In this document: positions 31,962 through 53,967 of the stretch, piece after piece
How the letters are laid out: each line of letters starts with the position of its first letter
How positions within the stretch are numbered: position 1 is the stretch's first letter
From: an uncultured Clostridia bacterium
Lineage (GTDB): Bacteria; Bacillota; Clostridia; Oscillospirales; Ruminococcaceae
Reading direction: 5' to 3'
Assembly (NCBI GenBank): GCA_947589215.1
Contig: CANQCL010000005.1
Location: 1 to 64,000 of the forward strand
DNA length: 64,000 bases
Notes under the pieces: generated by a model
Database searches by the model: none
Told to the model about the DNA's origin: nothing
Seen by the model: only the letters and a program-made list of their open reading frames with translations
Translations under genes and position numbers: made by a program

Positions 31962-33122
31962 ATGATTAAAGTAAAAGTTAAGTATTTAAACAACAGCATA
32001 GAAATTGAATTTCCCATTGATGAAAGTAATTTGCTTTCACAGCTTCAAACATTATTTAAGAATGAAATTGACAAGCAATTAATAGCTTCAAAAAGGATAA
32101 AATTTTTAATAGATGAAGTTATTGAACCAAAGGATTTGTCTGCAATAGAATATAGTGTTGTCAATTTAGATGAGCTTAACTATCTTGCGAAAAGAATGGA
32201 CAGCTTTGTGGATAAAGAGTTTAAACAATTTTATGCGGCAGCAAATTATTTTGGAATGAATAAAATGAAGGAGTTAATTAACCTAACTTTTAATCTACAG
32301 CATTATACATTGATTCAAGACTTCAGCAGTAAGGAGAATATCGGTAAAACTCATTTAATGAACAAGCTCGGAGGTATGAGCGAAGAAGAAATGGAAAAAA
32401 CCGATTTTGCTTCAGTTGGCAGAGAATTAATTAATTCAGGAACAGGAAAAATAACCGAATATGGGTTATTGTTTGAAAATACAGATGTTCCGCTTGAAGA
32501 TGTATATGACGGACAAGTCTTCCCTTTGTATGTATATAAAGACTGCGTTGCAATCGTTGGTATCAAGTTTAAAGAAAAAACGGAATATGCATATCTGCCA
32601 TGTGATAATATAGAATTTGATAATGCAGTAAAAAGACTGGGAGCATATACATTGGATCAATGTGAGATTGGTTTGGCGGAAATAAATATTACAGATAAAA
32701 GATGCTGCGATTGTTTTAAAGAGGTTTTTATGAATGAAGATATATATTCAGTTAACCTACTAGCGGCTGCATTAGATGGTGTAAATAATTATGATAAGTT
32801 GTCCGCTGCGTTTCAATTAGCCGATGTAAATGACAGTAAATCTCTTTCCACTATAGCACAAGAGCTTGATTCTTTCATTTATCTACCCGAAGTAAGTGAT
32901 CATGATGATTTAGCAAGACACTGGATAGAGGTCAATAAATACGAATTGGAATACGATTTAGAAGATTATTTCTTATTTGACCAATACGGAGAAGAAGTTG
33001 AAAGTGAAACGCAAGGTATGTTCATATCAGGCGGAGGCTATATCTACATTGAAAATAATCAAACACTGCAAGATATTCTGGATACAAACGAGGGAGAATC
33101 TATTGTGAGGGGAGTGATGTAA
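31962..33122 (+). CDS. ardA: ArdA-like antirestriction protein
   Basis: A 386-residue protein with the ArdA pattern of Clostridial Tn1549-like elements: ELNYLAKRMDSF, INLTFNLQHYTLIQDFSSKENIGKTHLMN, LINSGTGKITEYGLLFENT, LEDVYDGQVFPLYVYKD. ArdA mimics B-form DNA and blocks type I restriction enzymes when the element enters a new host. It is the first gene of the ICE after a strong terminator pair, the usual leading-region position. The end is DTNEGESIVRGVM, a mild version of the acidic-Met tail. ATG follows aaaggatg. Confidence 0.82.
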   Translation: MIKVKVKYLNNSIEIEFPIDESNLLSQLQTLFKNEIDKQLIASKRIKFLIDEVIEPKDLSAIEYSVVNLDELNYLAKRMDSFVDKEFKQFYAAANYFGMNKMKELINLTFNLQHYTLIQDFSSKENIGKTHLMNKLGGMSEEEMEKTDFASVGRELINSGTGKITEYGLLFENTDVPLEDVYDGQVFPLYVYKDCVAIVGIKFKEKTEYAYLPCDNIEFDNAVKRLGAYTLDQCEIGLAEINITDKRCCDCFKEVFMNEDIYSVNLLAAALDGVNNYDKLSAAFQLADVNDSKSLSTIAQELDSFIYLPEVSDHDDLARHWIEVNKYELEYDLEDYFLFDQYGEEVESETQGMFISGGGYIYIENNQTLQDILDTNEGESIVRGVM

Positions 33123-33176
33123 TATGATAGTAGTCAATAAAATATGAAAAAATAATTTAAGAAGGAGAAATATTCA

Positions 33177-33812
33177 ATGAACGAATGGGATCGCCTGCAT
33201 AGACAGGCAGAAAGGTATAAAGCAGAGTATCCGCCCGGAACACGCATTATGCTTCTAAGTATGGGCAGAGATATTAATCGAGTTGAGGATAACACAAGAG
33301 GAACAGTCAAGGCAGTTGATGATGTAGGAACACTGCATTGTGCTTTTGACAATGGCAGATCACTTGGTGTTATTCCCGGCGAGGACTCATTCAGAAAACT
33401 AACAGATCAGGAAATTGCCGAAGATAACGGAGAAAGCATCAATATGAAAAAAGCATTATTATGCATTGATAAAGATGTAACCTTTGTAGGATATATTAAA
33501 GGCGAGCGTTGGAATGGCTATGAATGTCCTCTCTTTACAAAAGATGAGGCAGAGCGTATCTGTCAGGAGTTTTCTGACGGTAAAACAATTGATCTATCAT
33601 ACGATGAAGAACGTGATCGCTATATTGCAGAATATATTGAAGAAGGAATAACCGATGAGTTTGAAGGTAAAGATTTTGAAATCAATGGCGAAATCAAACA
33701 CCTTTATCCAATCGGTTCAGGTGAATGGACTTGGAGTAAAGTTGATGATCCTGTAGAAGAAGATCAATCTGAAAGTGAGGACGAGGACAACGCTCTCGTC
33801 TTGGGAATGTGA
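33177..33812 (+). CDS. DUF4314-type protein with acidic Met tail
   Basis: 211 residues. The N-terminal ~75 match DUF4314 (YPPGTRIMLLSM, NTRGTVKAVDDVGTLHCAFDNGRSLGVIPGED), a small beta domain common in conjugative elements. The next 110 residues hold an acidic alpha/beta segment (KALLCIDKDVTFVGYIKGERW). The last 25 are almost all acidic or Ser and end DNALVLGM. Function is unknown. The ATG has aaggag. It is encoded in the ICE leading block. Confidence 0.75.
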   Translation: MNEWDRLHRQAERYKAEYPPGTRIMLLSMGRDINRVEDNTRGTVKAVDDVGTLHCAFDNGRSLGVIPGEDSFRKLTDQEIAEDNGESINMKKALLCIDKDVTFVGYIKGERWNGYECPLFTKDEAERICQEFSDGKTIDLSYDEERDRYIAEYIEEGITDEFEGKDFEINGEIKHLYPIGSGEWTWSKVDDPVEEDQSESEDEDNALVLGM

Positions 33813-33819
33813 GGTAATT

Positions 33820-34173
33820 ATGAATTCTATAATGGTAAAAGCACAATTTAATCAGGAAGCGTATATCAACCCTGCTGATGTTATTGCTGGAATTAAAGAT
33901 ATTTTGGGATTTAGTACCACATATGACAGTTTTTTAACTGTAAATGACGGTCAATTAGTGAAAGGCGAAGATATCAGCTATCACGGTTCTCCTATGTATG
34001 AATACGAAACAATTTCCAATAACCCAAAATTGATTGAATTGTTTAACAGTATTCAATGTATAGAGGACTATTTAAATCATTATAATGAACCGCAATGGAA
34101 CAAAATCATTGAACAGGATTTTGAACAAGATTTTGATGAGGACGAGGACAACGCTCCCGTTATGGGAATGTGA
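33820..34173 (+). CDS. Unknown ICE protein with acidic Met tail
   Basis: A 117-residue protein (MNSIMVKAQFNQEAYINPADVIAG) with no family I recognise. It ends in a run of Asp/Glu and then DNAPVMGM, almost the same last residues as the preceding protein (DNALVLGM), though the rest is unrelated. ATG 33820 is chosen because gaggta precedes it. It lies 7 nt after the DUF4314 gene, in the same operon. Confidence 0.65.
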   Translation: MNSIMVKAQFNQEAYINPADVIAGIKDILGFSTTYDSFLTVNDGQLVKGEDISYHGSPMYEYETISNNPKLIELFNSIQCIEDYLNHYNEPQWNKIIEQDFEQDFDEDEDNAPVMGM

Positions 34174-34217
34174 GGTGAGCAAGAAAAAATAAATAACTAG
34201 AAACGGTCGGATGTCAT

Positions 34218-35597
34218 ATGGCAATCCGATTTTTTGATATGTTCTCAGGGATAGGCGGTTTCAGGTACGGACTTGAAAAAGCAGGAGGCTTTAAATGTGT
34301 AGGATATTGTGAGATAGATAAGTATGCAAAAATGGCATATGAAGCTATGTATGATACGGAAGGAGAGATGTATTATGAAGACGCAGCCAAAATCAACCCG
34401 TATGAGTTACCCGATTTCGACCTTATTTGCGGAGGATTCCCTTGCCAGGCATTTTCAATTGCTGGAAAAAGGGGAGGTTTTAATGACGCAAGAGGAACTC
34501 TTTTCTTTGAAATTGCCCGAATCGCTGCCGTTAAAAAACCTAAATATCTGTTACTTGAGAATGTTCCCGGACTCTTGTCGCATGACAAAGGCAGGACGTT
34601 TGCGACGATCCTCAGTACGCTGGATGAGTTGGGGTACGATGTCGCATGGCAAGTGCTTAACAGCGCAGATTTTAATGTCGCCCAGTCAAGAAAAAGAGTG
34701 TATATTATCGGATTTCTTAGAGAAAGATGTGCCGGAAAAGTATTGTCTTTCACAGAGTCAAATCCAAAAACTATTGTCAGGCGCATACCCGGAAGTGAAG
34801 GGAACAGAGTCTACTCAGTCGAAGGGTTAGGTATAACTTTAACAGGATCGGCAGGAGGTTTCGGCGGTAAAACAGGAATGTATGAGATCATGGGTTTACC
34901 TATTAAGGTGAAAACAAAAAGCGGATATCAAATAGCATTGCCCGGTGACAGTATTGATCTTGCATATCCTAACCTAAATTCAAGGCGAGGTCGGGTAGGA
35001 AGCGAAATAGCCCATACTGTAACGCCAAGCTGTACACAAGGGTATTACGCATTATTTATAGATATGAATCCGAATCCCGAAATAACCGAAATGGCAAGGT
35101 GTATAACCGCAAGGCAAAACAACGGAATAGGCAATTACAAGGGAGAAAAGTCAGGAGTAATTGTGGTTTCAGAACCTATAGCAGTCATCAATCCTGAAAA
35201 GGAAAAGGTAAGACAGCAAGGCAGGCGTTTTAAACTTCCGAACGAGCCTATGTTTACAATCACAGTCTGTGATAAACACGGAGTAATCTATTGCGGTTAT
35301 ATCAGAAAGCTGCTGCCGATAGAATGCTGGAGGCTTCAGGGTCAGACAGATGAGAACTTCTTTAAAGCGTTTTTCCTTGATAAAGAGTTAGGTATCAGAT
35401 TCAACCGCATATATCAAAAACACAAGAATAACCGAGTTAGGTTAATGGAGTGGGCTTTTGAACATCAGAAGCTCTCCGACTGTCAGTTATATAAGCAGGC
35501 AGGAAATTCAGTTACTACTAACGTCATAACAGAAATTGCTGAAAATATCAAATTGATTGAAAATGAAGGAAGTGATAATAGTGCCAAATCATGTTGA
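34218..35597 (+). CDS. DNA (cytosine-5) methyltransferase, orphan
   Basis: 459 residues with the C5-methylase motifs in order: FFDMFSGIGGFRYGLEKAG (SAM site), GGFPCQAFSIAGKRGGF with catalytic Cys in PCQ, LLENVPGLL (ENV), QSRKRVYIIG, and the C-terminal QAGNSVTTNVI. No restriction enzyme lies nearby, so it probably protects the incoming element or modifies the host. Unlike its neighbours it has no acidic Met tail. Its 3' end overlaps the next gene's GTG start by 17 nt. Confidence 0.93.
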   Translation: MAIRFFDMFSGIGGFRYGLEKAGGFKCVGYCEIDKYAKMAYEAMYDTEGEMYYEDAAKINPYELPDFDLICGGFPCQAFSIAGKRGGFNDARGTLFFEIARIAAVKKPKYLLLENVPGLLSHDKGRTFATILSTLDELGYDVAWQVLNSADFNVAQSRKRVYIIGFLRERCAGKVLSFTESNPKTIVRRIPGSEGNRVYSVEGLGITLTGSAGGFGGKTGMYEIMGLPIKVKTKSGYQIALPGDSIDLAYPNLNSRRGRVGSEIAHTVTPSCTQGYYALFIDMNPNPEITEMARCITARQNNGIGNYKGEKSGVIVVSEPIAVINPEKEKVRQQGRRFKLPNEPMFTITVCDKHGVIYCGYIRKLLPIECWRLQGQTDENFFKAFFLDKELGIRFNRIYQKHKNNRVRLMEWAFEHQKLSDCQLYKQAGNSVTTNVITEIAENIKLIENEGSDNSAKSC

Positions 35598-36657
35598 AAA
35601 TTTAATCAGAATAAGCGGTGACGAGCAAAAAATCCGTGAAATACTTGAAACAATTAAAAATGATGAATACGGTATAGGTACGGTAGATTTTAATAAAATT
35701 ATTCCAATGCCGAAATCTCTGGATATTGAATGCGGAAGTAGAACAGATAAAGGGTTAAAAGCATATACGGATTTTGCTTCATCTTATGCTAAAGGTGAAA
35801 ACATACCCATAAGAAGTGAACAAGCATACCTTAAAAAAAGAAAAGATATCAGTTCAGAAGAATGGGAGTTAGGAAAAACTGCCTATCAAAATATTAAGAA
35901 GTACGGTTATTCAACTTGGTATGATTGGAGAGTTAATAACTGGGGAACAAAATGGAACGCTTACGGATATGAAGAAGATCATCAATACGAAAATGATAAT
36001 ATTCTTAGGTTTCAAACTGCGTGGTCAGCACCTGAGCCTATACTAGAAAAGCTCAGTAAAATGTATCCTGATATAACTTTTTATCATGCATGGGCTGATG
36101 AGGATCTAGGTTACAACTGCGGTCTTAGAGAATATCTAGGCGGCAAAAAATCAGGAGAATATATAACTGATGATCAAAAAGAAGCGTTAAAGTTTGCTAC
36201 ACTTGTTTGGAATCTCGAATCTGAAGAAATAGACGAATTATTTAGTAAAGATAAAATATTGTCTATTGAAGAACAAAACAAAGAGATAAAGACACAATCA
36301 CTTACAGATGAAAAGCTGGAAGTGGTAGAGATTCTAGGGCAAACAGCCCTGTTTACAAACGGCAGGGTTACAGATGAAGAACTGCCTGACGGTTTATATA
36401 AATACGACCTTCGGGAAGGAGAAAATATCAGCTTTGCAACTATAGAGAAATCGGTAACAGTTAATCATTCGGGAACTATACTTGTTAAATCTCCGCTGGA
36501 TTTTTACGGTCAGAGATATTTAGTTTTAGATGATGATACTTCTCCAAATTTTCTCGGCTATAGCCTAACGCCTGAAGAATTTATGGAAACAGACTTTACA
36601 CAATCAGAAGAACAGGATGAAGAAGATACACAAACAATCGGAGGTATGATTTTATGA
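35581..36657 (+). CDS. YubB-like (DUF1281) plus LPD25-like protein
   Basis: 358 residues. The N-terminus is a ferredoxin-like YubB/DUF1281 domain (MPNHVENLIRISGD, NWGTKWNAYGYE, LRFQTAWSAPEPILEKL, FYHAWADEDLGYNCG), common on conjugative plasmids. The C-terminal ~110 residues (LPDGLYKYDLREGENISFATIE, NHSGTILVKSP) resemble the large-polyvalent-protein-associated domain LPD25. It ends EEDTQTIGGMIL after an acidic run. GTG 35581 fits the MPNHV start of the family and gaaggaag upstream. Function is unknown. Confidence 0.75.
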   Translation: MPNHVENLIRISGDEQKIREILETIKNDEYGIGTVDFNKIIPMPKSLDIECGSRTDKGLKAYTDFASSYAKGENIPIRSEQAYLKKRKDISSEEWELGKTAYQNIKKYGYSTWYDWRVNNWGTKWNAYGYEEDHQYENDNILRFQTAWSAPEPILEKLSKMYPDITFYHAWADEDLGYNCGLREYLGGKKSGEYITDDQKEALKFATLVWNLESEEIDELFSKDKILSIEEQNKEIKTQSLTDEKLEVVEILGQTALFTNGRVTDEELPDGLYKYDLREGENISFATIEKSVTVNHSGTILVKSPLDFYGQRYLVLDDDTSPNFLGYSLTPEEFMETDFTQSEEQDEEDTQTIGGMIL

Positions 36658-37229
36658 GTGTAAAAATGATAACAACAGACGAACTTCGTCATATGAAAGG
36701 TGACGAGGGGCTGATTCTGCAAGGGTGCGGCGGCAACCTTGATGAATGGGTGGAGGGCATCAATGATATGTTTACTGACGAAGGCATATTAAAGGAAGGC
36801 AGTAAATTTGAAAATTGCTTAGCATTTGAAAATAACGGCGTTACCTGTCTTCTATTTCCGTTTAAGAATGTCAAAATTGAAACTGGCAAGTTAGCTATCT
36901 GGAGATTGAAAACCCATGAAACCTTCGGCGGTAAGTGGCTGTCTGATTATGTTCCAAATGTGCTAGGTGGGTTTGTTGAATATCAGGAACAGAAAAAGCC
37001 TGATTGTCCGCTGATAGGCCAGGACGGCAATATATATAATCTCATGGGGATTGCCTCACGAACGCTTAGAGAAAACGGAATGGGAGATCAGGCAACGGAA
37101 ATGTGTAATCGTATTCATAAATCAGGCAGCTATAACGAGGCACTGTGTATTTTGGATGAATATGTGAACATAACTTCCGTTGACGATACGGAAGATGAAG
37201 AATATGACGAAGGGATGGTGATGTTATGA
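36654..37229 (+). CDS. LPD28-like polyvalent-protein domain protein
   Basis: 191 residues: DEGLILQGCGGNLDEWVEGIN, ILKEGSKFENCLAF, LAIWRLKTHETFGGKWLSDYVPN. This block is shared with proteins I recall as LPD28 in Tn1549-like elements, where it appears alone or in large multi-domain proteins carried by mobile DNA. It ends DEEYDEGMVML, again acidic with Met near the end. The ATG overlaps the preceding stop by 4 nt. Confidence 0.7.
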   Translation: MSVKMITTDELRHMKGDEGLILQGCGGNLDEWVEGINDMFTDEGILKEGSKFENCLAFENNGVTCLLFPFKNVKIETGKLAIWRLKTHETFGGKWLSDYVPNVLGGFVEYQEQKKPDCPLIGQDGNIYNLMGIASRTLRENGMGDQATEMCNRIHKSGSYNEALCILDEYVNITSVDDTEDEEYDEGMVML

Positions 37230-37263
37230 TTGTAGGATAAATATAAAATAAAAAAATAAAACT

Positions 37264-37294
37264 GATATCAATCGCTCTGAAAACGATTGATATC
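37264..37294 (+). promoter_or_regulatory. 11-bp inverted repeat before the Dam-like gene
   Basis: gatatcaatcg and cgattgatatc are exact complements 9 bases apart. There is no T-run, so it may be an operator or mRNA hairpin affecting translation of the gene starting near 37326. Confidence 0.5.
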
Positions 37295-37325
37295 TAGGGC
37301 GATTGGTATTCACCAAAAGGAGGTG

Positions 37326-38309
37326 GTGATTATCAAAACCCCTGTAAGCTGGGTAGGAAATAAAACTCCTATCCTTCATATACTGTATGCTCTGTTTCCG
37401 ATAAACTATGAAAGGTATATAGAACCGTTCGGCGGCTCCGGCGCTGTTCTTTTAGGCAAGGCAAAGCCTGATAAATTTGAAGTATACAACGACTATAACC
37501 GAAATCTTGTAAATCTATTTCGCTGTATGAGAGACCGTCCGCTTGCCTTTATTAAAGAACTGGGATTCCTCACTCTGAATTCAAGAGATGACTTTTTTGC
37601 AATAAAAAAGTTCTTTAAGAAAGAGGAATTTGAGGATAACTTTTTAAATGAGGAGTTAGAACTCACCAATATCATACTTCCCGATATTCAGGCAAAAGAA
37701 ATAAGGGAGTTATATAAGGCTTCAAAACAAGACTACGACTTAAGACGTGCAGTAATGTTTTTAAAACTGCTAAGATATAGCTATTCAAGTGGCGGAAAAA
37801 GCTATGCGTGTCAGCCGTTCTCAGTTTGGAGCCTTTTTGAGTTGGTACAGAATTTAAGCAAAAGGCTTGCAAACGCCATTATTGAAAATCAGGATTTCGA
37901 GGTGCTGATAAAGCATTATGACAGAGATGATGCATTTATCTATTCAGACCCTCCGTATTACACAAGCGAGTATATGTATGAATGCGGTTTCACATGGGAA
38001 GATCATGTCCGACTGCGTGATACACTTGCTGATGCAAAAGGAAAATGGCTTGTGTCATATAATGACTGTGATGAAATCAGAGAACTGTATAAAGGATATG
38101 AGTTTTTCGATTTCAAGAGAATTCATTCAATGGTACAGAAGTATGAGGCAGGAAAGGAGTTTCCCGAACTGTTGATAGGAAACTACGATTTGTTTGAAAG
38201 AGAACGGTCAAAGCCAAGACAACTGACCCTGATGGATCTTCAAGACGGTTATCATCAGGATATTGAAAAAATGCTAAAGGAGAAAATACAGTATGGTAAA
38301 CACTATTAA
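37326..38309 (+). CDS. dam: DNA adenine methylase (Dam family), orphan
   Basis: About 327 residues: TPVSWVGNKTPILHILYALFP and YIEPFGGSGAVLLGK (SAM-binding FxGxG) and the catalytic DAFIYSDPPYYTSEY (DPPY). It methylates adenine, most likely in a short palindrome. It is an orphan, placed with ArdA and the C5-methylase in the establishment block. The start is uncertain: aaggagg lies at 37317-37323, so GTG 37326 or the following ATT/ATC codons are the best candidates. No acidic tail. Confidence 0.85.
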   Translation: MIIKTPVSWVGNKTPILHILYALFPINYERYIEPFGGSGAVLLGKAKPDKFEVYNDYNRNLVNLFRCMRDRPLAFIKELGFLTLNSRDDFFAIKKFFKKEEFEDNFLNEELELTNIILPDIQAKEIRELYKASKQDYDLRRAVMFLKLLRYSYSSGGKSYACQPFSVWSLFELVQNLSKRLANAIIENQDFEVLIKHYDRDDAFIYSDPPYYTSEYMYECGFTWEDHVRLRDTLADAKGKWLVSYNDCDEIRELYKGYEFFDFKRIHSMVQKYEAGKEFPELLIGNYDLFERERSKPRQLTLMDLQDGYHQDIEKMLKEKIQYGKHY

Positions 38310-38505
38310 AGAAACAGAATATGTACTTCTACCTGTTCCGACAGAGATAATGACAGAAGCAAATTTAAAGGAAAGCAACAATCTGCAATTTAGCGTAAAC
38401 AACGGAAAAATTGAAATAGAAGCCGTCAGAGATATAGAAGGACTGATTTGTAACGGTGATTGCAGAAACTGTCCATGCAGTGATGATTGCGATGAATGTG
38501 AATAA
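38293..38505 (+). CDS. Small Cys-rich protein paired with AbrB
   Basis: 70 residues. The first part (EYVLLPVPTEIMTEANLKE, LQFSVNNGKIEIEAV) resembles a swapped-hairpin or AbrB-like fold. The C-terminus is a Cys cluster (CNGDCRNCPCSDDCDEC) that could bind a metal ion. The ATG follows aaaggaga and overlaps the methylase end. Such a protein before an AbrB gene is a repeated arrangement in related elements, to my knowledge. Confidence 0.6.
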   Translation: MVNTIKETEYVLLPVPTEIMTEANLKESNNLQFSVNNGKIEIEAVRDIEGLICNGDCRNCPCSDDCDECE

Positions 38506-38536
38506 AAAAGCAAAACTCAGAAAGGAGTGAGTTAAT

Positions 38537-38818: not shown

Positions 38819-39499
38819 TTGCAGATAAAGATTTTTCAGATAAATCCCGAAAGGGATAAAAACAAAGTGATGTTCGCATCACTTGATGATACAGAAACCC
38901 GTCAGGAATCCTCTAAACTTGATCCTTCGATCTATGACCGTGTCTTTACAGGTGATGTGGATTGTGAGGATCTAGAGGAAGTATATAAATTATTTAATAC
39001 AGACGGACACAGGTTGAACAGAGGACATTCGCTTTCAGTATCAGACATTATTGAGGTTGAGTCAGAAAAAGGCTCTGAATTCTATTTCTGCGACAGTATA
39101 GGCTTTAAGCCAGTTAGCTTTAAGCCTGAAAAAGCACAGGCTTCGGATGATCTAATTAGAGTGCTGGTAGTTGAACCGAATCGTGTTCCGTATGAGTCTG
39201 AAATCGTTAATACGCTTGAAGGACAGCAAAAGGCTGTTGAAGGCTTAATAGAGTATTTGTATAACGATGACGATACGATAATTGTTCTTAATGAGGAAAG
39301 CAAGCTGAATGGAATGGAAGGAAACCGCAGGATAGAAGGAGATGTTCTTGCAGGACCTTTCTTTATAGCCGGAGATGACGGAGAGAAGCTGTGTTCACTA
39401 ACAGATGAGCAGTTAGAAAAATATGCGGATGTATTCGCAGAGCCGGAGGATATATCTCCAGATGAAATAGAGTCTCATACTGGGTATATATTAATGTAA
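38819..39499 (+). CDS. YodL plus DUF3846 protein with Met tail
   Basis: 226 residues with TTG start after aaaggag. The N-terminal half is YodL-like (IYDRVFTGDVDCEDLEEVYKL, HRLNRGHSLSVSDIIEV, EFYFCDSIGFKPVSF). The C-terminal half matches DUF3846 (IRVLVVEPNRVPYESEIVN, LEGQQKAVEGLIEYL, LNEESKLNGMEGNRR). Both domains recur in Tn1549-like elements with unknown roles. It ends SPDEIESHTGYILM. It begins immediately after the AbrB stop. Confidence 0.75.
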   Translation: MQIKIFQINPERDKNKVMFASLDDTETRQESSKLDPSIYDRVFTGDVDCEDLEEVYKLFNTDGHRLNRGHSLSVSDIIEVESEKGSEFYFCDSIGFKPVSFKPEKAQASDDLIRVLVVEPNRVPYESEIVNTLEGQQKAVEGLIEYLYNDDDTIIVLNEESKLNGMEGNRRIEGDVLAGPFFIAGDDGEKLCSLTDEQLEKYADVFAEPEDISPDEIESHTGYILM

Positions 39500-39552: not shown

Positions 39553-39963
39553 ATGGCAGTTAAGAAATCAAAAACAAATACAGCGAAGAAAGCTGAACAA
39601 AAAGTTAGACAAGTACCAATAATCAGTGCAAGAATTGACAAGCTGTATAATTATGAGGACAGCAATTTAAAAGCAGTTGCAAGCGTAAATATCGGCGGTG
39701 CATTTGCAGTACACGGAATAAGGATAATTGAATCACAAAAGGGTATGTTTGTGGCTATGCCGTAAACACGCTATACAGATTCAAACGGAGAAACTAAGTA
39801 TAGGGATATTACTCATCCTGTAACATCTGCTGCAAGAAAAGAACTGATCGACAAGGTAACAGAAGCATATGATAAGGCTCTTGAAGAACAGCAGAATGAA
39901 ACGGAATCAGAGGATGAAACAGAAGATGAGTCCGAATCTCAGGAATTAGTGCCTCAAATGTAA
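39553..39963 (+). pseudogene. SpoVG-like protein with one in-frame stop
   Basis: Residues 1-70 (VRQVPIISARIDKLYNYEDSNLKAVASVNIGGAFAVHGIRII) match the SpoVG RNA/DNA-binding fold. A TAA at 39763-39765 then interrupts, and the same frame continues with TDSNGETKYRDITHPVTSAARKELI and the tail ESESQELVPQM to a stop at 39961. Without the stop it is a normal ~136-residue ICE SpoVG protein. CAA to TAA is a likely mutation. The acidic tail fits the shared signal described in the findings. Confidence 0.8.
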
Positions 39964-45898: not shown

Positions 45899-45931
45899 CT
45901 TGAAAAAAGCTGTTTTAACAGACTTTTGGGG

Positions 45932-46408
45932 GTGATAACAATATTTGATTGGTTAGGAGATATAATCGGTGGGATAGGTGACGCTATCGGCGGTACGTTT
46001 GACTATCTCGGCGGACAAATATCAAATATGATATGGGACGCTATGCTTCAATGGTTTTACAATGCGATTTACGATGCTGTTGCTAACTTCATTCTGCTTA
46101 TACAAATATCAGTAGGGGCGCTGTATATGTTCAGTGTACCACGAGGATACACAGACGGTTTTAATCAATGGCTAAAGCAGATCATTGCACTTTGCCTTAC
46201 TGCCTTTATGCAGACAACTCTGCTGTTTCTTGGATTGCTTACCTTTAATGACAGTATGCTGCTGGGGCTTGGTATTATGCTTGCTGCAAACGAAGTGCCG
46301 AGAATAGCACAGCAGTTCGGATTAGATTCAAGTGTAAGAGTAAATATGATGAGCGTTGTTCATGCAACTTCTACTGCGGTCAACCTTACAAAGAAATTAG
46401 TTAGTTAG
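45932..46408 (+). CDS. VirB6/TrbL-like membrane channel protein
   Basis: About 158 residues, with an amphipathic Gly-rich start (GDIIGGIGDAIGGTFDYLGGQI) and at least two or three membrane segments (VANFILLIQISVGALYMFSV, IIALCLTAFMQTTLLFLGLL, MLLGLGIMLAAN). It matches the VirB6/TrbL-like family of Tn1549 elements. GTG 45932 is given; TTG 45926 is possible and no good ribosome site is present. Likely inner part of the transfer channel. Confidence 0.7.
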   Translation: MITIFDWLGDIIGGIGDAIGGTFDYLGGQISNMIWDAMLQWFYNAIYDAVANFILLIQISVGALYMFSVPRGYTDGFNQWLKQIIALCLTAFMQTTLLFLGLLTFNDSMLLGLGIMLAANEVPRIAQQFGLDSSVRVNMMSVVHATSTAVNLTKKLVS

Positions 46409-46491
46409 GAAAGCTAATAATACTTGATAAATTCAGTAAGATGTGATATAATTTGTTTAAAATAGTAAGTAGTATATGGAGGTGAGCGTTT

Positions 46492-46833
46492 ATGTATGTT
46501 TTTCCAAAAAAATGTGAGGGCGATGATACTTTGAAATTTATTTTTCCGTCAAAGCAGAAAGCTGTACAAAAAGCAATTGATATTGCAAGAGATGACGAAA
46601 GAATAAATAGGTTGATTATCTTTGGAAGTGCTGTAACACTTGATTGCGGTATGACTAGCGATGTAGATATAGCCATAGACGCTCCGAACCTTGATTTTGA
46701 TACGTTTGCAAATCTAGCACGTCCTTTTTATAGAGATATACCATCAGAGGTCGATATAATTCATTATAATGAGATACACAGTGAGTTGTTTAAACAACAG
46801 GTAAATAAAGGAGTGTGTGTATATGTTAAGTAG
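46492..46833 (+). CDS. MNT-domain nucleotidyltransferase (ICE)
   Basis: 113 residues: LIIFGSAVTLDCGMTSDVDIAID is the GSx10DxD signature, with a third acidic position in SEVDIIHYNEI. It is the antitoxin-like partner of the following HEPN protein. It is not closely related to the IME2 pair at 24036. Strong ribosome site ggaggtgag. The end overlaps the HEPN start. No acidic tail. Confidence 0.85.
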   Translation: MYVFPKKCEGDDTLKFIFPSKQKAVQKAIDIARDDERINRLIIFGSAVTLDCGMTSDVDIAIDAPNLDFDTFANLARPFYRDIPSEVDIIHYNEIHSELFKQQVNKGVCVYVK

Positions 46834-47257
46834 TAAAGATTGTTTAATACTTGCCAATAGAGATTACAAGACTTGTATTCTCGTCGAGCAGAAGTTTCCT
46901 GATGAATATGCTGTAACTGCAGCGACCTATCACATACAACAGGCAATAGAAAAAACTTTAAAAGGTTTAATTCTTATAAACGGGGGACAGCCTGAGTTCA
47001 CACATAATATTAATAAACTAATACAGCATTGCAATAATTTAGGGATAGAGATCACTGATGAATTAGATGATATATCAGAGACGCTTACCATTTGGGAAAC
47101 AAGCAGTAGATATGATCCGTTTATCAATTTTTCTCAAAAAAAATATGACAAGGCTAAGAATGTATTTAAAGAATTGTACAATCAGCTATATGAAGAAATA
47201 GACGCCATAGTGCAGTATGAGGATAATGATAACCCCAATTTTGGTATGACACTTTAA
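46823..47257 (+). CDS. HEPN-domain protein with acidic Met tail (ICE)
   Basis: About 144 residues: YAVTAATYHIQQAIEKTLKGLILINGG and HNINKLIQHC match the HEPN fold paired with MNT proteins. The usual RxxxxH motif is not clear, so nuclease activity is uncertain. It ends VQYEDNDNPNFGMTL. The antitoxin partner lacks such a tail, so if tails mark exported proteins only the putative toxin half would travel. Inserted between VirB6-like and VirB3-like genes. ATG 46823 fits aaaggag. Confidence 0.78.
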   Translation: MLSSKDCLILANRDYKTCILVEQKFPDEYAVTAATYHIQQAIEKTLKGLILINGGQPEFTHNINKLIQHCNNLGIEITDELDDISETLTIWETSSRYDPFINFSQKKYDKAKNVFKELYNQLYEEIDAIVQYEDNDNPNFGMTL

Positions 47258-47280
47258 AAAACAGAATAAGAATACACAAA

Positions 47281-47308: not shown

Positions 47309-47330
47309 GTATATATGAAGGGGGAATTAT

Positions 47331-47594: not shown

Positions 47595-48182
47595 ATGAAA
47601 TTAACTAAAGAAAAACAGCATAAAAGAAAAAAGGGGAACTCTGTACAGAACCTTATCGGTATTAAAACCTTTACAAATTACGGTCTTGCAGTTAACAAGT
47701 ATGAACTCTTGTTTTTCCTTGTATCACCGACAAATATATCGGTTCTGTCAAGTGCTAATATTGAAATCAAGATTCGTCACATTATGATGGTATTGTCATC
47801 TATCCCGAATATTGAGATAACCTGTACGGATTCTTGTGAATGCTTTGATGACAACAAGAACTATCTGCAAAGCAGGCTAAGTGAGGAACATAATCCAAAG
47901 GTGAAAAAGATTTTGCAAAATGACATTGATATGCTTGATAATGTGCAGACGGAAATGGCTACAGCAAGACAGTTTTTGTTTATTGCACGATGTAAGAATA
48001 TGAAGCCGGAACAGGTGTTTCAGACTGCCAACCGTACAGAAAAGGTAATATCAGAGCAAGGTTTTGAAGTACAGAGAATGAAGAAAAACGATATAAAGCG
48101 TTTTCTCGCTATATACTTTGAGGCATCAATGAACGGAGAGCAGATGCCTGATTCAGACGGCGAGCAATTCTTTGAGGTATAA
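47595..48182 (+). CDS. VirB4-associated conjugation protein
   Basis: 195 residues: KYELLFFLVSPTNISVLSSANIEIKIRHIMMVL resembles the N-terminal region of VirB4-type ATPases, with no Walker motifs. A protein like this precedes VirB4 in Tn1549-like elements. It probably interacts with VirB4 or VirB3. Contiguous with the preceding gene. It has no acidic Met tail (ends GEQFFEV). Confidence 0.6.
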   Translation: MKLTKEKQHKRKKGNSVQNLIGIKTFTNYGLAVNKYELLFFLVSPTNISVLSSANIEIKIRHIMMVLSSIPNIEITCTDSCECFDDNKNYLQSRLSEEHNPKVKKILQNDIDMLDNVQTEMATARQFLFIARCKNMKPEQVFQTANRTEKVISEQGFEVQRMKKNDIKRFLAIYFEASMNGEQMPDSDGEQFFEV

Positions 48183-48280
48183 GTTTGAAAGATAAATCTT
48201 TCAAACTGCGAGTTTTGTGCTTTTCGGACAATGTCCGAAATTTTGTTTACACAAAAACGCCCAAAACATCGAAAGGAGGA

Positions 48281-48328
48281 ATGCTCCTTGCGGAGCATAC
48301 TATAAAAAATGAAGAAAAAGAAGAATAA
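48281..48328 (+). other. Short leader ORF and hairpin before the sortase
   Basis: The perfect gaaaggagga ribosome site at 48271-48280 faces ATG 48281, which opens a 15-codon frame (MLLAEHTIKNEEKEE) ending at 48328, past the sortase ATG at 48309 in a different frame. atgctcc pairs with ggagcat, placing a hairpin between the ribosome site and the sortase start. This looks like a translational-coupling or attenuation leader, or else an assembly indel. Confidence 0.45.
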
Positions 48329-49091
48329 CTCAAAAACATATATTCTTCTGCTGTCGGCGGTTGCACTTTTGTGTGCGCTATTATCGGTAAAGCATATAGT
48401 TAGTGAGAAAAGGGAACAAAAAAAGTTTAATGATCTTTCAAAGATAATTACCTTAGATGATATTCATTCAATTGAAACCGCTGAAAGTCAGACCAATAGC
48501 AGTAAAACGGTAGAATCAGATACAAAACAGAAAAGGAAACGAAATTTATCTGAATTAATCAATAAGAACAATGACTGCATAGGCTGGATAAGCATACCTG
48601 ATACTGCCGTTGATTATCCCGTAATGCATACGCCAAACAATCCTAAAGAGTATCTATATAAGAATTTCTATGGCTATTACAGTCAATGGGGAGTGCCGTT
48701 CCTTGACTCACGATGTGATTTGGAATGCGACAACCTTATTGTCTACGGTCATAATATGCATGACGGTACTATGTTCTCAAGTCTTTGCTATTATGCAAAT
48801 TATTCGTATTGCTTAGCACATCCTGTTATTGAGTTTGAAACGGAGAACGGATGTGAAAAGTATAATATATTTGCAGTAATTCCTACAACTACAAATGATG
48901 AAATATATAAATTTGTTTCTGTTTATACAGAGCAAGATTATGATAAGGTCATAAAAACCATAAAGAAAAAGTCAAAATTTGATTTTGGGATAACTCCCGA
49001 ATATGGCGATCGTTTATTAACGCTGTCCACTTGCTATGGCAGTAATAATAACGGTCGCATTTTAATTATAGCTAGAATGGAGGCTGATTAG
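48309..49091 (+). CDS. Class B-type sortase
   Basis: 260 residues with an N-terminal membrane anchor and the sortase fold: IGWISIPDTAVDYPVMH, catalytic His148 in IVYGHNMHDGTMF, Cys242 in LTLSTCYGS and Arg250 in GRILIIAR. It joins sorted surface proteins to the wall, most likely the adhesin at 40849, whose motif is IPQTGD. The start follows a short leader ORF, so expression may be coupled. It lies directly before VirB4. Confidence 0.9.
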   Translation: MKKKKNNSKTYILLLSAVALLCALLSVKHIVSEKREQKKFNDLSKIITLDDIHSIETAESQTNSSKTVESDTKQKRKRNLSELINKNNDCIGWISIPDTAVDYPVMHTPNNPKEYLYKNFYGYYSQWGVPFLDSRCDLECDNLIVYGHNMHDGTMFSSLCYYANYSYCLAHPVIEFETENGCEKYNIFAVIPTTTNDEIYKFVSVYTEQDYDKVIKTIKKKSKFDFGITPEYGDRLLTLSTCYGSNNNGRILIIARMEAD

Positions 49092-49092
49092 A

Positions 49093-50907
49093 TTGTCAGT
49101 TTTTAAACGAAAACCAAAGGTGCAGACGCCTGAAGAAATAGAAGAAATACAAACCAAAGACTTCTTTGATATGATCCTGCCCGGCACAATCAAATTTTTA
49201 TCAGATCATTATATAATCGGTGACAGCTATCGCTGTGTATGGGTAATAAGGGAGTATCCGCCTTCAACTGAGGCACAAGCTATACTTTCTCAGCTTGCTG
49301 ACAGAAACGGTGTAACACTCCGTATTTATCACAGGCTGGTGGAGTCTATTGAGCAGAGAAAGATACTTCAAAATGCTGCAAGGAAAAACAAGCTGATGTC
49401 AACGGGTAACAATGTAAATGAAACCATAGAGGCAGAAGGAAATTTGCAGGATGTAGTTGAGCTCCTCGCAAATCTTAGAAAGAATAAAGAACCGCTGCTG
49501 CATTGCTCTGTATTTATTGAACTGAAGGCAAAGAATATGGACGCACTAAAAGAATTGCAAAGCGAGATAGCTATGGAACTGACACGTTCCAAGATGTCGG
49601 TAGACAGGCTTACACTTAGACAGAAAGAAGGATTTTTATCTGTTCTGCCAGTGGGCGCAAATCAGTTTGGTGCTCAGTATGAAAGAGTGCTGCCTGCAAG
49701 CTCGGTTGCAAATCTGTATCCGTTTAACTTCTCAGGCAAGACCGATCCTCAGGGGCTATATATAGGTCGAGATAAGTTCGGAACAAATATCCTAGTAGAC
49801 TTTGACAGGAGAAGTGAGGACAAAACCACAAGCAACATTTTAATTCTTGGAAACAGCGGTCAGGGAAAAAGCTATCTTTTAAAACTGATACTGACAAATA
49901 TCCGTGAATCGGGTAAAACAGTGATCTGTCTTGACCCTGAAGCCGAATATGAGGAAATAACTGAAGCTCTCGGCGGTTGTTATATTGATTTTATGTCAGG
50001 GGAATACACAATCAACCCGTTAGAACCGAAAGCGTGGACAGACGGTGTTGATGATATTGATGAAAATATTCCTGAGGCTTTCAAGAAGGTAACAAGGTTA
50101 TCTCAGCATATAGCTTTTCTTAAAGATTTTTTCAGAGCGTACAAGGATTTCAGCGATGCACAGGTGGATACTATAGAGATTCTGTTAATGAAGCTTTATG
50201 CAAGGTTCGGTATCACAGACAGCACTGACTACAGCACCAAAAAGCCGTCTGACTTCCCTATAATGGGGGATTTCTATAAGCTGTGCGAAGAAGAATATAT
50301 GACTTATGATAAAACGCAAAAGCACCTATACACTGAGGAAATGCTTCAAGAGGTATGTTTAGGAATACACTCTATGTGTGTAGGCACAGAAAGCAAATAC
50401 TTCAACGGACACACAAATATCAAAGATGATAAGTTCCTTTGCTTTGGAGTTAAGGGACTGATGGATACAAACAAGAGGCTTAAGGACGCTATGCTATTCA
50501 ATATTCTTTCGTATATGTCAAACGAGTTGCTTGGCAAGGGAAATACTGCTGCATCAATAGATGAGCTATATTTATTCCTTACCAATATGACGGCAATTGA
50601 ATATATCAGAAACGCAATGAAGCGTGTGCGTAAAAAGGACTCCTCTATAATTCTGGCAAGTCAGAATATTGAGGATTTTCTCATTCCATCAATAAGGGAG
50701 TTTACAAAGCCGTTGTTTTCAATACCTACACATCAATTCTTATTTAACGCAGGACAGATAAATCCTAAAGATTTTATGGACGCTTTACAGGTAGAACCGA
50801 GCGAGTTTGAACTCATAAAATATCCTGAAAGGGGAACTTGTCTATATCGATGCGGTAATGAGCGTTATTTTTTCTCGGCCTCTGAATCTACAATTAAATT
50901 TTGTTGA
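49093..50907 (+). CDS. virB4: VirB4-family conjugation ATPase (TraE-like)
   Basis: 604 residues. The N-terminal ~240 residues are the VirB4 assembly domain; the ATPase has Walker A LILGNSGQGKSYLLK (about 252-262), Walker B region ASIDELYLFL and the RxxG/arginine-finger area. It powers pilus or channel assembly. TTG 49093 is 9 nt after ggagg. The 3' end overlaps a converging zinc-ribbon gene by 43 nt. Confidence 0.92.
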   Translation: MSVFKRKPKVQTPEEIEEIQTKDFFDMILPGTIKFLSDHYIIGDSYRCVWVIREYPPSTEAQAILSQLADRNGVTLRIYHRLVESIEQRKILQNAARKNKLMSTGNNVNETIEAEGNLQDVVELLANLRKNKEPLLHCSVFIELKAKNMDALKELQSEIAMELTRSKMSVDRLTLRQKEGFLSVLPVGANQFGAQYERVLPASSVANLYPFNFSGKTDPQGLYIGRDKFGTNILVDFDRRSEDKTTSNILILGNSGQGKSYLLKLILTNIRESGKTVICLDPEAEYEEITEALGGCYIDFMSGEYTINPLEPKAWTDGVDDIDENIPEAFKKVTRLSQHIAFLKDFFRAYKDFSDAQVDTIEILLMKLYARFGITDSTDYSTKKPSDFPIMGDFYKLCEEEYMTYDKTQKHLYTEEMLQEVCLGIHSMCVGTESKYFNGHTNIKDDKFLCFGVKGLMDTNKRLKDAMLFNILSYMSNELLGKGNTAASIDELYLFLTNMTAIEYIRNAMKRVRKKDSSIILASQNIEDFLIPSIREFTKPLFSIPTHQFLFNAGQINPKDFMDALQVEPSEFELIKYPERGTCLYRCGNERYFFSASESTIKFC

Positions 50908-51332
50908 GTATTGGCAGTACCCGCTACATTTATTTTTCTTTTTTTAAATCTTCCGATAAAGAAAGGTATGGCTAACAACACACAGTAGATAGCAACAATA
51001 GTTATTACATTATCGGTATGCACTCTAGTAAACCAAGATCTTGTTGCGGTGCTGTAGCATACGTCCTTAATTGGGACTTCATACCATTTAATACTTTCGA
51101 GACAAATATCACTATTAAGCGTAACAAGTGCATAATGAGATAAATACGGCGGATTAACCAGAGTTGGTATAAATCCATAAACGAATGTCAATAAAACAAG
51201 CACTATGTATATAACAACTATGATTTTTCTTTTTCTACTCCATCGCATTTTATCATCAAGTTTTTTGCCGCAATTTGGGCAAAACTTGCTGCCATTCTCT
51301 AATTCTCGTCCGCAGTGTTTGCAAAAAGCCAT
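50865..51332 (-). CDS. Zinc-ribbon membrane protein
   Basis: 155 residues: an N-terminal zinc ribbon (FCKHCGRELENGSKFCPNCGKKL, four Cys), then two membrane segments (IIVVIYIVLVLLTFVYGFI and ITIVAIYCVLLAIPFFIG) and a cytoplasmic tail. Encoded opposite to the transfer operon and overlapping the end of virB4. Function is unknown; such zinc-ribbon membrane proteins are common in Clostridia. Confidence 0.7.
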   Translation of the reverse strand: MAFCKHCGRELENGSKFCPNCGKKLDDKMRWSRKRKIIVVIYIVLVLLTFVYGFIPTLVNPPYLSHYALVTLNSDICLESIKWYEVPIKDVCYSTATRSWFTRVHTDNVITIVAIYCVLLAIPFFIGRFKKRKINVAGTANTQQNLIVDSEAEKK

Positions 51333-51364
51333 AAATAAGCCTCCCTGTCATAAAAATTTTAATC

Positions 51365-51658
51365 TTAAAAACCGTTGGAAAAACCGTTGAAAATAATATA
51401 TGCAAATATCAGAGCTGCTGCAAGTCCTCCTATAATTTTTAAAATGATTATACCAAGACTGTCTCCTGCTTTGCTTTGTTGATTTTCCTGTTCCAGTTGA
51501 TCGATTTGTCGATGTAACGCACGGATTTGTTCTTCCGTTTGTTGGCTCTTATCAATGTCCTGCTTTTGTTCATTTTCGCAAACGACTTATTTGCCGCAAG
51601 AGGAACAAAACACGGAATTTTCCGACAACTGACTGCCGCAATATTTGCAAAATGCCAT
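51365..51658 (-). pseudogene. Second zinc-ribbon membrane protein with one in-frame stop
   Basis: Starts MAFCKYCGSQLSENSVFCSSCGK, then TAA at 51587-51589, and the same frame continues VVCENEQKQDIDKSQQTEEQI, a coiled stretch and one membrane segment (IIILKIIGGLAAALIFAYIIF). Without the stop it is a 97-residue relative of the preceding gene. The ribosome site aggagg is intact. A Gln or Lys codon mutated to TAA would explain it. Confidence 0.65.
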
Positions 51659-51811
51659 AAATATCCTCCTTACAAGTGAGCGCCACACGCTAATTATGTT
51701 GACAAAATTATATCATATTTTCAGCCATAAGTCAAACTAATAGTAATAGCCTAGTTGTAGCATGGCGAAATATTTCTATAATTGTAATAGTATTTGACGA
51801 GGTTTTTTAAT

Positions 51812-52351
51812 ATGGATTATGCAATCATAGAAAATAGAATAAAGCGTGTTCGCAGAGCCGCTGGTTTAACACAGGAAAAATTTTCTGAAAAGATATAGGT
51901 TTCCTCCAATTACCTAAGTAAAATTGAGGGTGGACACGAAAAGCCCAATCTTGAAATGCTGAATAATATTAAGCAAGAAGAAAGTATAAAAGACAGATTT
52001 GATTCTAAAATTAAAGACTGCTACAGCGAATATGAAAAGCAATGGATGCAGTTGGGTATAAAAGAATTACTTGACAAGGCAGAAGAAATAGCAACAGTTC
52101 AGCACATGGCATCTGAGCTTCCTGCTTATGCGTCAGATAAAGAAAAGGAATATCTGTTGAAGTTTAAAAATCCATTAGAAGTGGTCAGTGACTTTTGGAT
52201 AGAGAACGGATATGAAACATTAGTCATAGATGATCTTCAACTTGTACTTAATCGAATTGTCTATGACAAAGACGCAGAAGCTGATTATGAAATGGAAGAT
52301 GAAGCTGAGTCAGAATCTGAAACAGAAACTTATACTGCTATGCAGATCTGA
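51812..52351 (+). pseudogene. XRE regulator with acidic Met tail, one in-frame stop
   Basis: MDYAIIENRIKRVRRAAGLTQEKFSEKI, then TAG at 51896-51898, then VSSNYLSKIEGGHEKPNLEML and a helical domain, all in one frame to 52351. This is a Cro/CI helix-turn-helix split by one stop codon in the recognition region; a Gln codon (CAG) there would be normal. The C-terminus is ESESETETYTAMQI, an acidic run with Met near the end. If translation restarts downstream, a protein without the DNA-binding part could still be made. Confidence 0.7.
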
Positions 52352-52457
52352 ATAAAATTAGCTTTATTCAGATATTGAAATTTGGTTGATTTTTTCTGTA
52401 TATGATGATATAATGTGCATGAAAAATGCGATAAAAAAAGTTAAAGAAGGTGCATAA

Positions 52458-53171
52458 ATGAAGCCAAAATTCTCAATGACAATAAAAGAAAATATATTTA
52501 TTGCTAAACGAAATCTAGTTGATTATATATACAACAGTGCAAAGCTCGAAGGCTGTAATGTTACTTTTCCTGAAACTAAGACAATCATTGACGGCGTTAA
52601 TGTTGGTGATGTATCACTAAGTGATGTACAAACAATTTTGAATATGAGGGATGCATGGAAGTTCGTTCTTTCCAATATAGAAAAGCCGTTTGACTTGGAT
52701 TTTATCTGCCGTGTCAATGATTTTGTATCGAGAAGTGAGAGTCTGCAATGGGGTGTTCTTAGAACAGGAAAAGTAGGAATTTCGGGAACAGATTACACAC
52801 CTGACATTCCGATAAAAGAGGATGTTATAAATAAGCTGTCAGAACTTTCAAAGGATAAAAGTGCAACTGAGTATGCAATAGATTTTTTCCTCTGGGCGTG
52901 TCGCTCACAACTATTTTGGGATGGAAACAAACGAACAAGCACAATATGTGCAAATAAAATTCTTATATCAGCAGGCGAGGGTATTCTGACTGTCAGAGAT
53001 GAAGATATTCTTGAGTTCAACAAGCTGCTTCTTGAATACTACAACACAAATGACGCATCATCTATAAAGTTTTGGCTGTATAAAAATTGTATTGACGGTA
53101 TTGATTTACGACAAGTGGAAGATGAAGCGGAGAGTGAAAATGAAGATAATAATCCCCAATTGACAATGTAA
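52458..53171 (+). CDS. Fic-fold protein with altered active site and acidic Met tail
   Basis: 237 residues. The Fic core is recognisable: LFWDGNKRTSTICANKIL corresponds to HxFx(D/E)GN(G/K)R, but the catalytic His is Gln151. An inhibitory-helix-like SAKLEG motif lies near residue 30. Fic proteins usually attach AMP to proteins, and His loss normally abolishes this, so it may do another reaction, bind only, or belong to a variant subfamily. It ends ESENEDNNPQLTM, the shared tail. Ribosome site aagaagg. A candidate recipient-directed effector. Confidence 0.75.
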   Translation: MKPKFSMTIKENIFIAKRNLVDYIYNSAKLEGCNVTFPETKTIIDGVNVGDVSLSDVQTILNMRDAWKFVLSNIEKPFDLDFICRVNDFVSRSESLQWGVLRTGKVGISGTDYTPDIPIKEDVINKLSELSKDKSATEYAIDFFLWACRSQLFWDGNKRTSTICANKILISAGEGILTVRDEDILEFNKLLLEYYNTNDASSIKFWLYKNCIDGIDLRQVEDEAESENEDNNPQLTM

Positions 53172-53187
53172 AAACAAAAAGTATATT

Positions 53188-53220
53188 AACCACACTGTTA
53201 AAACAGCAGTGTGGTTTTTT
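53188..53220 (+). terminator. Terminator after the Fic-fold gene
   Basis: aaccacactg pairs with cagtgtggtt across nine bases, followed by a T-run. Confidence 0.9.
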
Positions 53221-53240
53221 AATTTCAGGAGGATATTTAT

Positions 53241-53489
53241 ATGAAAAAAGTAACAATTAATATTTCTTATGATGAGGAAAAACTATCTGCACTAAAGCTA
53301 TATCTTGATAAAAAAGATGTGAATGTCGAGGACGAATTAAAAAACTATATAGATAAATTATATATAAAATCTGTTCCGATAGGTGTGCGTGAATATATTG
53401 AAATACGTTCAGGAAAGGCAACAGATGAATCAAAGATAAAAAAGCAAAACACATCAAAAATAAATTCGGAGGTGGCTAACAGTGGCTAA
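53241..53489 (+). CDS. DUF6103-like small ICE protein
   Basis: 82 residues: NISYDEEKLSALKLYLDKKDVNVEDELKNYIDKLY is the core of a small family (DUF6103 as I recall) that recurs before oriT genes in Tn1549-like elements. It might be a ribbon-helix-helix or relaxosome-associated protein. Strong aggagg ribosome site. It overlaps the next gene by 8 nt. Confidence 0.6.
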   Translation: MKKVTINISYDEEKLSALKLYLDKKDVNVEDELKNYIDKLYIKSVPIGVREYIEIRSGKATDESKIKKQNTSKINSEVANSG

Positions 53490-53967
53490 TACTAAACGCT
53501 TTTCTGTTTATCATTTTCATAATGCCGATGATGATTTTTTCTTTACAACAGAACTGCGTGACACTTTTTATAGCGCAGCATATAGTTACAGAAAATTAAT
53601 TCAGGATGGCAATGATAATTTAACTCTAGACAGTATTGCTTCTATTTACTACAGTGACTATAATCCTATTGATGAATTGAATTATTCTGTTCTTTGTGAT
53701 GCTATGCCGAATGACTTTCGTATATCTATGCTGATTGAGTTTGATTTTGAAAACGGAACAGTAGATATATGTGATAGCAGTGATAATACTTGGCGAGTTT
53801 ATAATCTCGATGATGTTATAGAGGCAGTCAGTCGGGCAGAAAGAAAACCAGGTCTTCATTTGGAAACAAGGCGTGAAATATTTGAAGAAGCACTGACAGG
53901 GAAAGAAATCTATTATGATGAGAATGAAATAGTTGACGAGGACAGTAGTCCCACAATGCAGATGTAA
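53482..53967 (+). CDS. Unknown ICE protein with acidic Met tail
   Basis: 161 residues, GTG start overlapping the preceding stop. MANTKRFSVYHFHNADDDFFFTTELRDTFYS and later segments match no family I know. It ends ENEIVDEDSSPTMQM. It is the last gene before oriT, so it belongs to the first DNA to enter or to the last, depending on the nick strand. Confidence 0.6.
   Translation: MANTKRFSVYHFHNADDDFFFTTELRDTFYSAAYSYRKLIQDGNDNLTLDSIASIYYSDYNPIDELNYSVLCDAMPNDFRISMLIEFDFENGTVDICDSSDNTWRVYNLDDVIEAVSRAERKPGLHLETRREIFEEALTGKEIYYDENEIVDEDSSPTMQM

Follow-up and report, generated by a model that had tools for sequence, protein, structure and literature searches.

Acidic tails at the protein ends of the window

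We analyzed a 64,000-nt stretch of contig CANQCL010000005.1 from an uncultured Clostridia bacterium (hereafter the window), in which an integrative and conjugative element (ICE) lies downstream of two integrative and mobilizable elements (the first and second IME). Many proteins of these elements end in a similar short acidic tail closed by methionine or another hydrophobic residue (Table 1), a feature that the first-pass annotation of this DNA had read as a candidate signal for a type IV secretion system (T4SS). Tails were scored by a rule (rule R) that demands a methionine within the last six residues, a terminal hydrophobic pair, and an acidic run upstream; open reading frames (ORFs) came from a simple longest-ORF script rather than a gene finder, were taken between positions 31,900 and 54,000 for the ICE, and had to reach at least 100 aa for the window count. 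By this rule 10 of the 22 ICE ORFs carry the tail. Equal frequency in chromosomal proteins, which would speak against a signal, was not what we found: of 311 ORFs taken from 20 stretches elsewhere in this genome, only 1 matched (Fisher p = 1.7e-12), in a control that may include mobile DNA since one of its stretches (L004) encodes a coupling protein of another type. With a simpler rule the counts were 9 of 22 ICE ORFs against 4 to 6 of the 311. Together with a profile built from the window tails alone, described below, this control rules out chance or genome composition as the source and confirms that the tails exist and are much more frequent than chance would give.

All 15 end strings listed in the first-pass annotation are present in the sequence, and 12 of them are the C-termini of intact ORFs by rule R. 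Two do not hold up, as a stop codon in frame precedes the string QELVPQM of the SpoVG-type protein and the acidic run is missing from the HipA-like remnant at 16406. In the IMEs, rule R is passed by the first-IME relaxase and the second-IME HEPN protein, while the second-IME relaxase fails it on account of upstream basic residues and passes a looser rule for relaxases. Some protein labels required correction: Pfam places both DUF1281_C (YubB-like) and LPD28 on the 35557 protein and finds no domain in the 36654 protein (hereafter p36654), to which LPD28 had been attached, and the 51956 protein, previously called XRE, has only a sub-threshold match to DUF3848. Pfam backs the labels MobL, VirB4-type, VirD4, sortase, ArdA, DUF4314, LPD28, YodL, HEPN, and Fic. 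For other homologues of the query proteins we use Dcm, Dam, AbrB, adhesin (CnaB), TrsC, VirB6, PrgI, and TopB, which are presumed names, in part taken over from the first-pass annotation.

Table 1. Tails and related features of the window (positions are those of the tail for tailed proteins and of the gene otherwise)
Feature	C-terminal end	Position	Strand	Gene or ORF	Basis
ArdA protein tail	..NEGESIVRGVM	33045..33122	+	31962-33122	Pfam ArdA, E 2.5e-9; rule R
DUF4314 protein tail	..SESEDEDNALVLGM	33735..33812	+	33177-33812	Pfam; rule R
Small protein tail	..DEDEDNAPVMGM	34096..34173	+	33820-34173 (longest ORF from 33775)	rule R
DUF1281_C/LPD28 protein tail	..EEDTQTIGGMIL	36580..36657	+	longest ORF 35557-36657	Pfam; rule R
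p36654 tail	..DEEYDEGMVML	37152..37229	+	36654-37229	rule R
YodL/DUF3846 protein tail	..EIESHTGYILM	39422..39499	+	38819-39499	Pfam; rule R
SpoVG-type tail (remnant behind in-frame TAA)	..ESESQELVPQM	39886..39963	+		frame reading
HEPN protein tail	..DNDNPNFGMTL	47180..47257	+	longest ORF 46817-47257	Pfam; rule R
51956 protein tail	..SETETYTAMQI	52274..52351	+	51956-52351	rule R
Fic-like protein tail	..ENEDNNPQLTM	53094..53171	+	52458-53171	Pfam; rule R
53482 protein tail	..VDEDSSPTMQM	53890..53967	+	53482-53967	rule R
First-IME MobL relaxase tail	..SEDDEQDMSM	8036..8113	-	8036-9385	Pfam; rule R
Second-IME MobL relaxase tail	..SKDDEQGVKMHM	24737..24814	-	24737-26092	looser relaxase rule
Second-IME HepT-like (HEPN) protein tail	..QGQGMNMTF	24628..24705	+	24328-24705	rule R
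ICE MobL relaxase, tail-free	..EKKQAHGLRQG	56463..58223	+		Pfam
VirD4-type coupling protein (putative tail reader)		60516..62438	+		Pfam
VirB4-like channel ATPase, tail-free		49093..50907	+		Pfam
Sortase		at 48309			Pfam

Recurrence in related loci

A single p36654-based scan of bacterial genomes gave 235 relatives, of which the best 80 were kept as loci; by their record titles these are largely Oscillospiraceae, Ruminococcus, Lachnospiraceae, and uncultured Clostridia. The rule-R tail was found in 30 of 35 DUF4314, 12 of 16 ArdA, 43 of 67 p36654, 26 of 41 LPD28, and 9 of 20 YodL homologues, as well as in 73 of 994 unassigned ORFs. As the first-pass annotation had claimed, methylases, AbrB, and T4SS-type proteins lack it: none of 181 homologues in the 80 loci was tailed, a set made up of 33 Dcm, 44 Dam, 15 AbrB, 26 adhesins, 12 sortases, and 51 T4SS-type proteins (TrsC 16, VirB6 14, PrgI 10, VirB4 7, VirD4 4), so that the machinery-type proteins (T4SS, sortase, and adhesin) stand at 0 of 89. 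The few homologues of MobL (0/2), toprim (0/1), and the 53482 protein (0/2) in these loci were also tail-free. A profile built from the ten window tails alone separated 179 accessory-family proteins from the 181 tail-free ones with an area under the curve (AUC) of 0.92, and gave 0.917 against the 311 control ORFs and 0.88 for accessory ends against their own internal stretches; because the scored families are homologues of the training proteins, this measures persistence of the tail rather than its independent discovery.

When 2202 ORFs were clustered without their last 30 residues, 12 of the 59 clusters with at least five members contained tailed proteins and the other 47 (596 proteins) had none; counting clusters of any size, 34 had at least one tailed member. 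Recurrence on clusters built in this way excludes an artefact of common descent, and a short C-terminal signal common to otherwise unrelated proteins is what C-terminal T4SS signals present. Further carriers by Pfam are RepB-regulator-like, GGACT, and HipA_C proteins. Functionless gene ends, inherited or exchanged between genes, would offer another account. In its favor, the ends of the DUF4314 and 33820 genes in the window are 88% identical in DNA and are probably one duplicated end. As a general explanation, we give it a minimal probability, as the window tails average only 39% base identity over 8 codons and the tail recurs on the clusters made without it.

With clusters weighted equally, the consensus has methionine at -1 in 47% (18 times background) and leucine in 15%, methionine at -3 in 36%, and enriched aspartate or glutamate from about -14 to -7, a picture that is partly by construction because rule R itself demands methionine and acidic residues. 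An acidic run followed by a hydrophobic end also resembles the tip of SSB, which is the terminal D-D-D-x-P-F with a final phenylalanine, and the tail might in this manner dock its carriers on some other shared hub, such as a replication, relaxosome, or single-strand-binding factor of donor or recipient; the carrier ArdA indeed acts on DNA-related targets. We regard such docking as unlikely. Phenylalanine is outside the six commonest last residues of rule-R tails, there is no evident reason why HEPN, Fic, amidoligase, and GGACT carriers should visit one DNA hub, and a hub does not predict the preference for relaxases of elements without T4SS genes that is reported below.

Copies outside these elements

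The first-pass annotation had named two further comparisons, with homologues in elements that have no T4SS and with paralogs outside ICEs, and in both the copies read elsewhere were tail-free. DUF4314 proteins in 13 phage records (13 fetched of 39 matching, including the near duplicates L132/L133 and L143/L144) had no tail as judged by eye. Likewise, the tail was in none of seven annotated phage amidoligases or five phage proteins added for their alike C-terminal sequence rather than by annotation; phage copies end in ..SAWRHAA or ..FRNGRAA. Among 30 amidoligase (Amidoligase_2) loci fetched from genomes, 8 of which gave no ORF and 2 an antisense ORF, 10 had an acidic extension ending in AFSMQM, AFTMSM, FLSM, AFELSM, TVTMNM, or similar, and six of the tailed loci (L304, L306, L307, L308, L316, and L328) have T4SS genes on the same contig. 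For SpoVG, 30 best-scoring loci, presumed to be chromosomal, were fetched and 26 were readable; rule R matched one, which by eye was a false match. In the SpoVG cluster of ICE-type loci, of which one member was put to Pfam, 21 of 26 end in methionine by manual count and 7 pass the strict rule. The tail has therefore been added to enzymes (amidoligase, DUF4314, and SpoVG) that elsewhere go without it. Absence from the machinery and from untransferred homologues, here the phage and presumed chromosomal copies, is likewise a property of C-terminal type IV secretion signals.

Six YubB-like homologues from 50 plasmid records also had no tail. Of 50 matching records from the plasmid collection, the 15 listed all matched over the cytosine methylase only, and ArdA gave one match; the viral contigs yielded a single VirD4 locus. 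We observed as well that phages (L132-L144, L230, and L246, with many Heliusvirales records) hold DUF4314 near amidoligase and gamma-glutamyl cyclotransferase genes, and that ICE loci hold the same families in tailed form.

Relaxases of mobilizable and conjugative elements

Relaxases are obligate substrates of the conjugation channel. We fetched 33 MobL loci, excluding five (L236, L253, L264, L265, and L266) that gave no scored MobL ORF, and found the acidic tail on 8 of 11 MobL proteins without T4SS genes within 14 kb compared with 4 of 20 with such genes (p = 0.007, in a test that ignores the kinship of the relaxases and includes the near duplicates L233 and L237). The proposal that IME relaxases carry the tag is thus supported. 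Many ICE-type relaxases end near ..EKKQAHGLKQG, and the IME-type ones extend on past this point into the tail. Both results fit a need for the tag in relaxases that rely on a foreign channel, whereas a relaxase with its own matched channel may do without. Two PF03432 relaxases (L115 and L116) end in acidic M-type tails, ENDGPTMKM and EEIDMDIS, and the tail is therefore not confined to MobL relaxases.

A second, basic tail class

The first-pass annotation had described a single shared tail, yet a second class exists. In a group of ICEs that we take to be TopB-type and Tn1549-like, the C-termini of unrelated proteins are basic and finish in ..ER (KQQER, PERER, and KREQER). The same protein family can have either end: with classes set by other genes, p36654 homologues end in [EQ]R in 9 of 9 cases in TopB-type loci and in the acidic tail in 26 of 32 cases in the first class, and in 33 unclassed loci the counts were 1 of 26 and 17 of 26, respectively. 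When the classes were instead defined by the coupling protein, using all loci longer than 4.2 kb that had a VirD4 of the relevant type (18 and 16 loci) and leaving out a third VirD4 clade, [EQ]R ends occurred in 30 of 206 second-class and 1 of 206 first-class proteins, and acidic tails in 0 of 206 and 35 of 206. A narrower choice of 15 M-type and 17 R-type loci, minus one and two without a VirD4 ORF, gave 30/195 versus 0/187 for [EQ]R and 0/195 versus 31/187 for acidic tails. The class of tail thus goes with the class of element and not with the protein family. Two large proteins of 1296 aa and 2811 aa, by their size presumably polyvalent, have basic ..ER ends as well, and an amidoligase with the basic end NQER occurs in two loci (L313 and L317). 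Agrobacterium VirE2 and VirF carry basic C-terminal T4SS signals, charge-based and C-terminal like the ..ER class although in a different system, while the tails of the window class are acidic.

Short C-terminal tags with a hydrophobic end can be degrons, and the acidic tails might likewise be signals for degradation or stability by which the donor keeps its accessory proteins in check. We consider this highly improbable, given that the tail follows the class of element and not the family of protein, is commoner on MobL relaxases that have no T4SS genes nearby than on those that do, and ends unlike LAA-type tags.

For the coupling protein, the presumed reader, we compared the VirD4 segment between the Walker motifs (residues 254-300 of the window protein, putatively the place of the all-alpha domain in TrwB). 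Its mean charge is +3.7 in the first class and -8.1 in the second, positive in 17 of 17 and negative in 25 of 25 proteins. Charge complementarity was nevertheless rejected as evidence for a reader, because the third clade breaks the pattern and a fourth has no rule-R tails. Recognition by the VirD4 all-alpha domain, as the first-pass annotation had suggested, is therefore weakly indicated: segment charge fits in two clades and does not in the third. Many second-class coupling proteins (L338-L351) themselves have an acidic end of the YELLSDEDFE kind, a possible docking site for the basic tails.

Tails and ribosome-binding sites

Gene ends might also look alike because they hold the ribosome-binding site of the next gene. 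Many of the genes are tightly packed. In line with such a site, GGAGG occurs in the final bases of 68 of the 187 tails whose next start is no more than 20 bases away, compared with 3 of the 58 that have none within 40, and 28 of 30 MGGM tails are of the near-start kind, so the GG of the MGGM form may double as the ribosome site of the next gene. Within the window, ORF coordinates place a next start this near for two tails only, those of LPD28 and DUF4314, and the GGAGG of the DUF1281_C/LPD28 tail may also serve the overlapping next gene. Among all 263 tails, however, the 58 (18 clusters) without a start within 40 bases keep the motif, with methionine at -1 in 33, which shows that there is more to the tail than a ribosome site; for several R-type ends, GGAGG falls past the stop codon. 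A ribosome-site artefact is thus ruled out for most tails, and we assign this account only the slightest probability overall.

A predicted sorting tag for conjugation

We predict that the acidic tail acts at the C-terminus as a sorting tag that directs its carriers to the conjugation channel of this class of ICE, and consider this reading likely. The tail would be read in the donor by the ICE conjugation apparatus, with the VirD4 coupling protein or its immediate surroundings as the most likely site; tagged antirestriction, toxin-like, and uncharacterized proteins, together with the relaxases of mobilizable elements, would be loaded into the T4SS channel along with the DNA; and the delivered proteins would act in the recipient. 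IMEs without a channel of their own would place the same tag on their relaxase. At the sequence level, support comes from a tail that is shared but confined to certain genes, that machinery-type proteins and the copies read outside these elements do not have, and that is replaced by a different one in the other class of ICE.

Several observations weigh against this prediction. The ICE's own relaxase in the window, on which the first-pass annotation was silent, is tail-free, and so by the looser rule are in all 16 of the 20 MobL relaxases beside T4SS genes; the SpoVG tail of the window, moreover, comes after a stop codon in its frame. Three of the 11 without nearby T4SS genes also fail, namely L234 (by rule only), L254 (near a contig end), and L259. 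Some genomes with a tagged IME (G008 and G062) have no close relative of the window VirD4, the third VirD4 clade (L178, L212, and L217) has a segment charge of +3 to +4 beside mostly basic ends, and the fourth (-6 to +1) is without rule-R tails. Tail rates per family are below 100% (9/20 for YodL, 26/41 for LPD28, and 43/67 for p36654), [EQ]R ends occur in 3 of the 311 control ORFs, and one phage DUF4314 copy (L140) ends in ..DER, by chance or otherwise. Finally, HEPN and Fic toxin-like carriers are odd as delivered cargo.

C-terminal T4SS signals are a known kind. According to two reviews (PMC12624023; PMC7434980), VirD4 proteins recruit substrates through their all-alpha domain and, in those that have one, through a C-terminal tail. 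The closest parallel is the E-block of the Legionella Dot/Icm system, in which, as excerpts of the source describe, acidic Glu-rich C-terminal signals on different effectors are bound by DotM (PMC5802825). The tails described here are also acidic, Glu-rich C-terminal stretches, although rule R itself demands acidic residues, and the peptide of the Legionella substrate CegC3 ends in ..EEKEEENEESSRFTM, an acidic run followed by F-T-M (PMC5802825). The Legionella system differs in being type IVB, Gram-negative, and directed at eukaryotes, while the window represents conjugative elements of Clostridia with a VirB4/VirD4-like channel and has a tighter terminal M/L motif that is carried by relaxases too (compared with the excerpts of PMC5802825). 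For plasmid pED208, co-transfer of plasmid proteins in conjugation is reported and needed contact between relaxosome and TraD; passage of recipient-useful proteins through a conjugation channel, shown there, is what we infer here, while the excerpts give no shared C-terminal tag (PMC8406263). The polyvalent proteins of phages and conjugative elements, for which delivery by the conjugation apparatus has been proposed with Tn1549-like elements named, belong to the same protein world, again with no shared C-terminal tag in the excerpted description (PMC5512222). Neither this tail nor a pair of tails specific to element classes was found described in the open literature as covered by titles, starts of abstracts, and the best matches listed, a scope that subscription papers and preprints fall outside.

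More broadly, the two tail classes suggest that among conjugative elements of Clostridia two or more C-terminal address codes are in use that exclude each other, the acidic M-x-M and the basic ..ER, each placed on relaxases and on a wide range of unrelated accessory proteins, which reach 2811 aa in the basic class. Phage or chromosomal enzymes would be recruited by adding the code of the element's own channel, and mobilizable elements would put the code on their relaxase to ride that channel. We lean toward this wider scheme, by a narrow balance. If the tail is a transfer signal, the last 25 residues could serve to pick out from genome sequence which proteins a widespread group of gut ICEs sends during conjugation, among them many families whose function is not known. 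Gram-positive conjugation would then have a simple, testable substrate code, the acceptance of mobilizable elements by foreign channels would be explained, and YodL, DUF4314, LPD28, SpoVG-like, and amidoligase proteins would be expected to have a role in the recipient.

State of the ICE copy and neighboring genes

The ICE copy in the window may be decayed or defective, because its SpoVG gene has an in-frame TAA at 39763-39765, with the frame running on to the tail at 39963; its VirB6-like protein (45926-46408) has 160 aa compared with about 310 in relatives; and its VirB4 ends differently from relatives, with the usual C-terminal stretch missing. Next to the tailed, toxin-like HEPN protein, the MNT-like neighbor (46492-46833) is tail-free.

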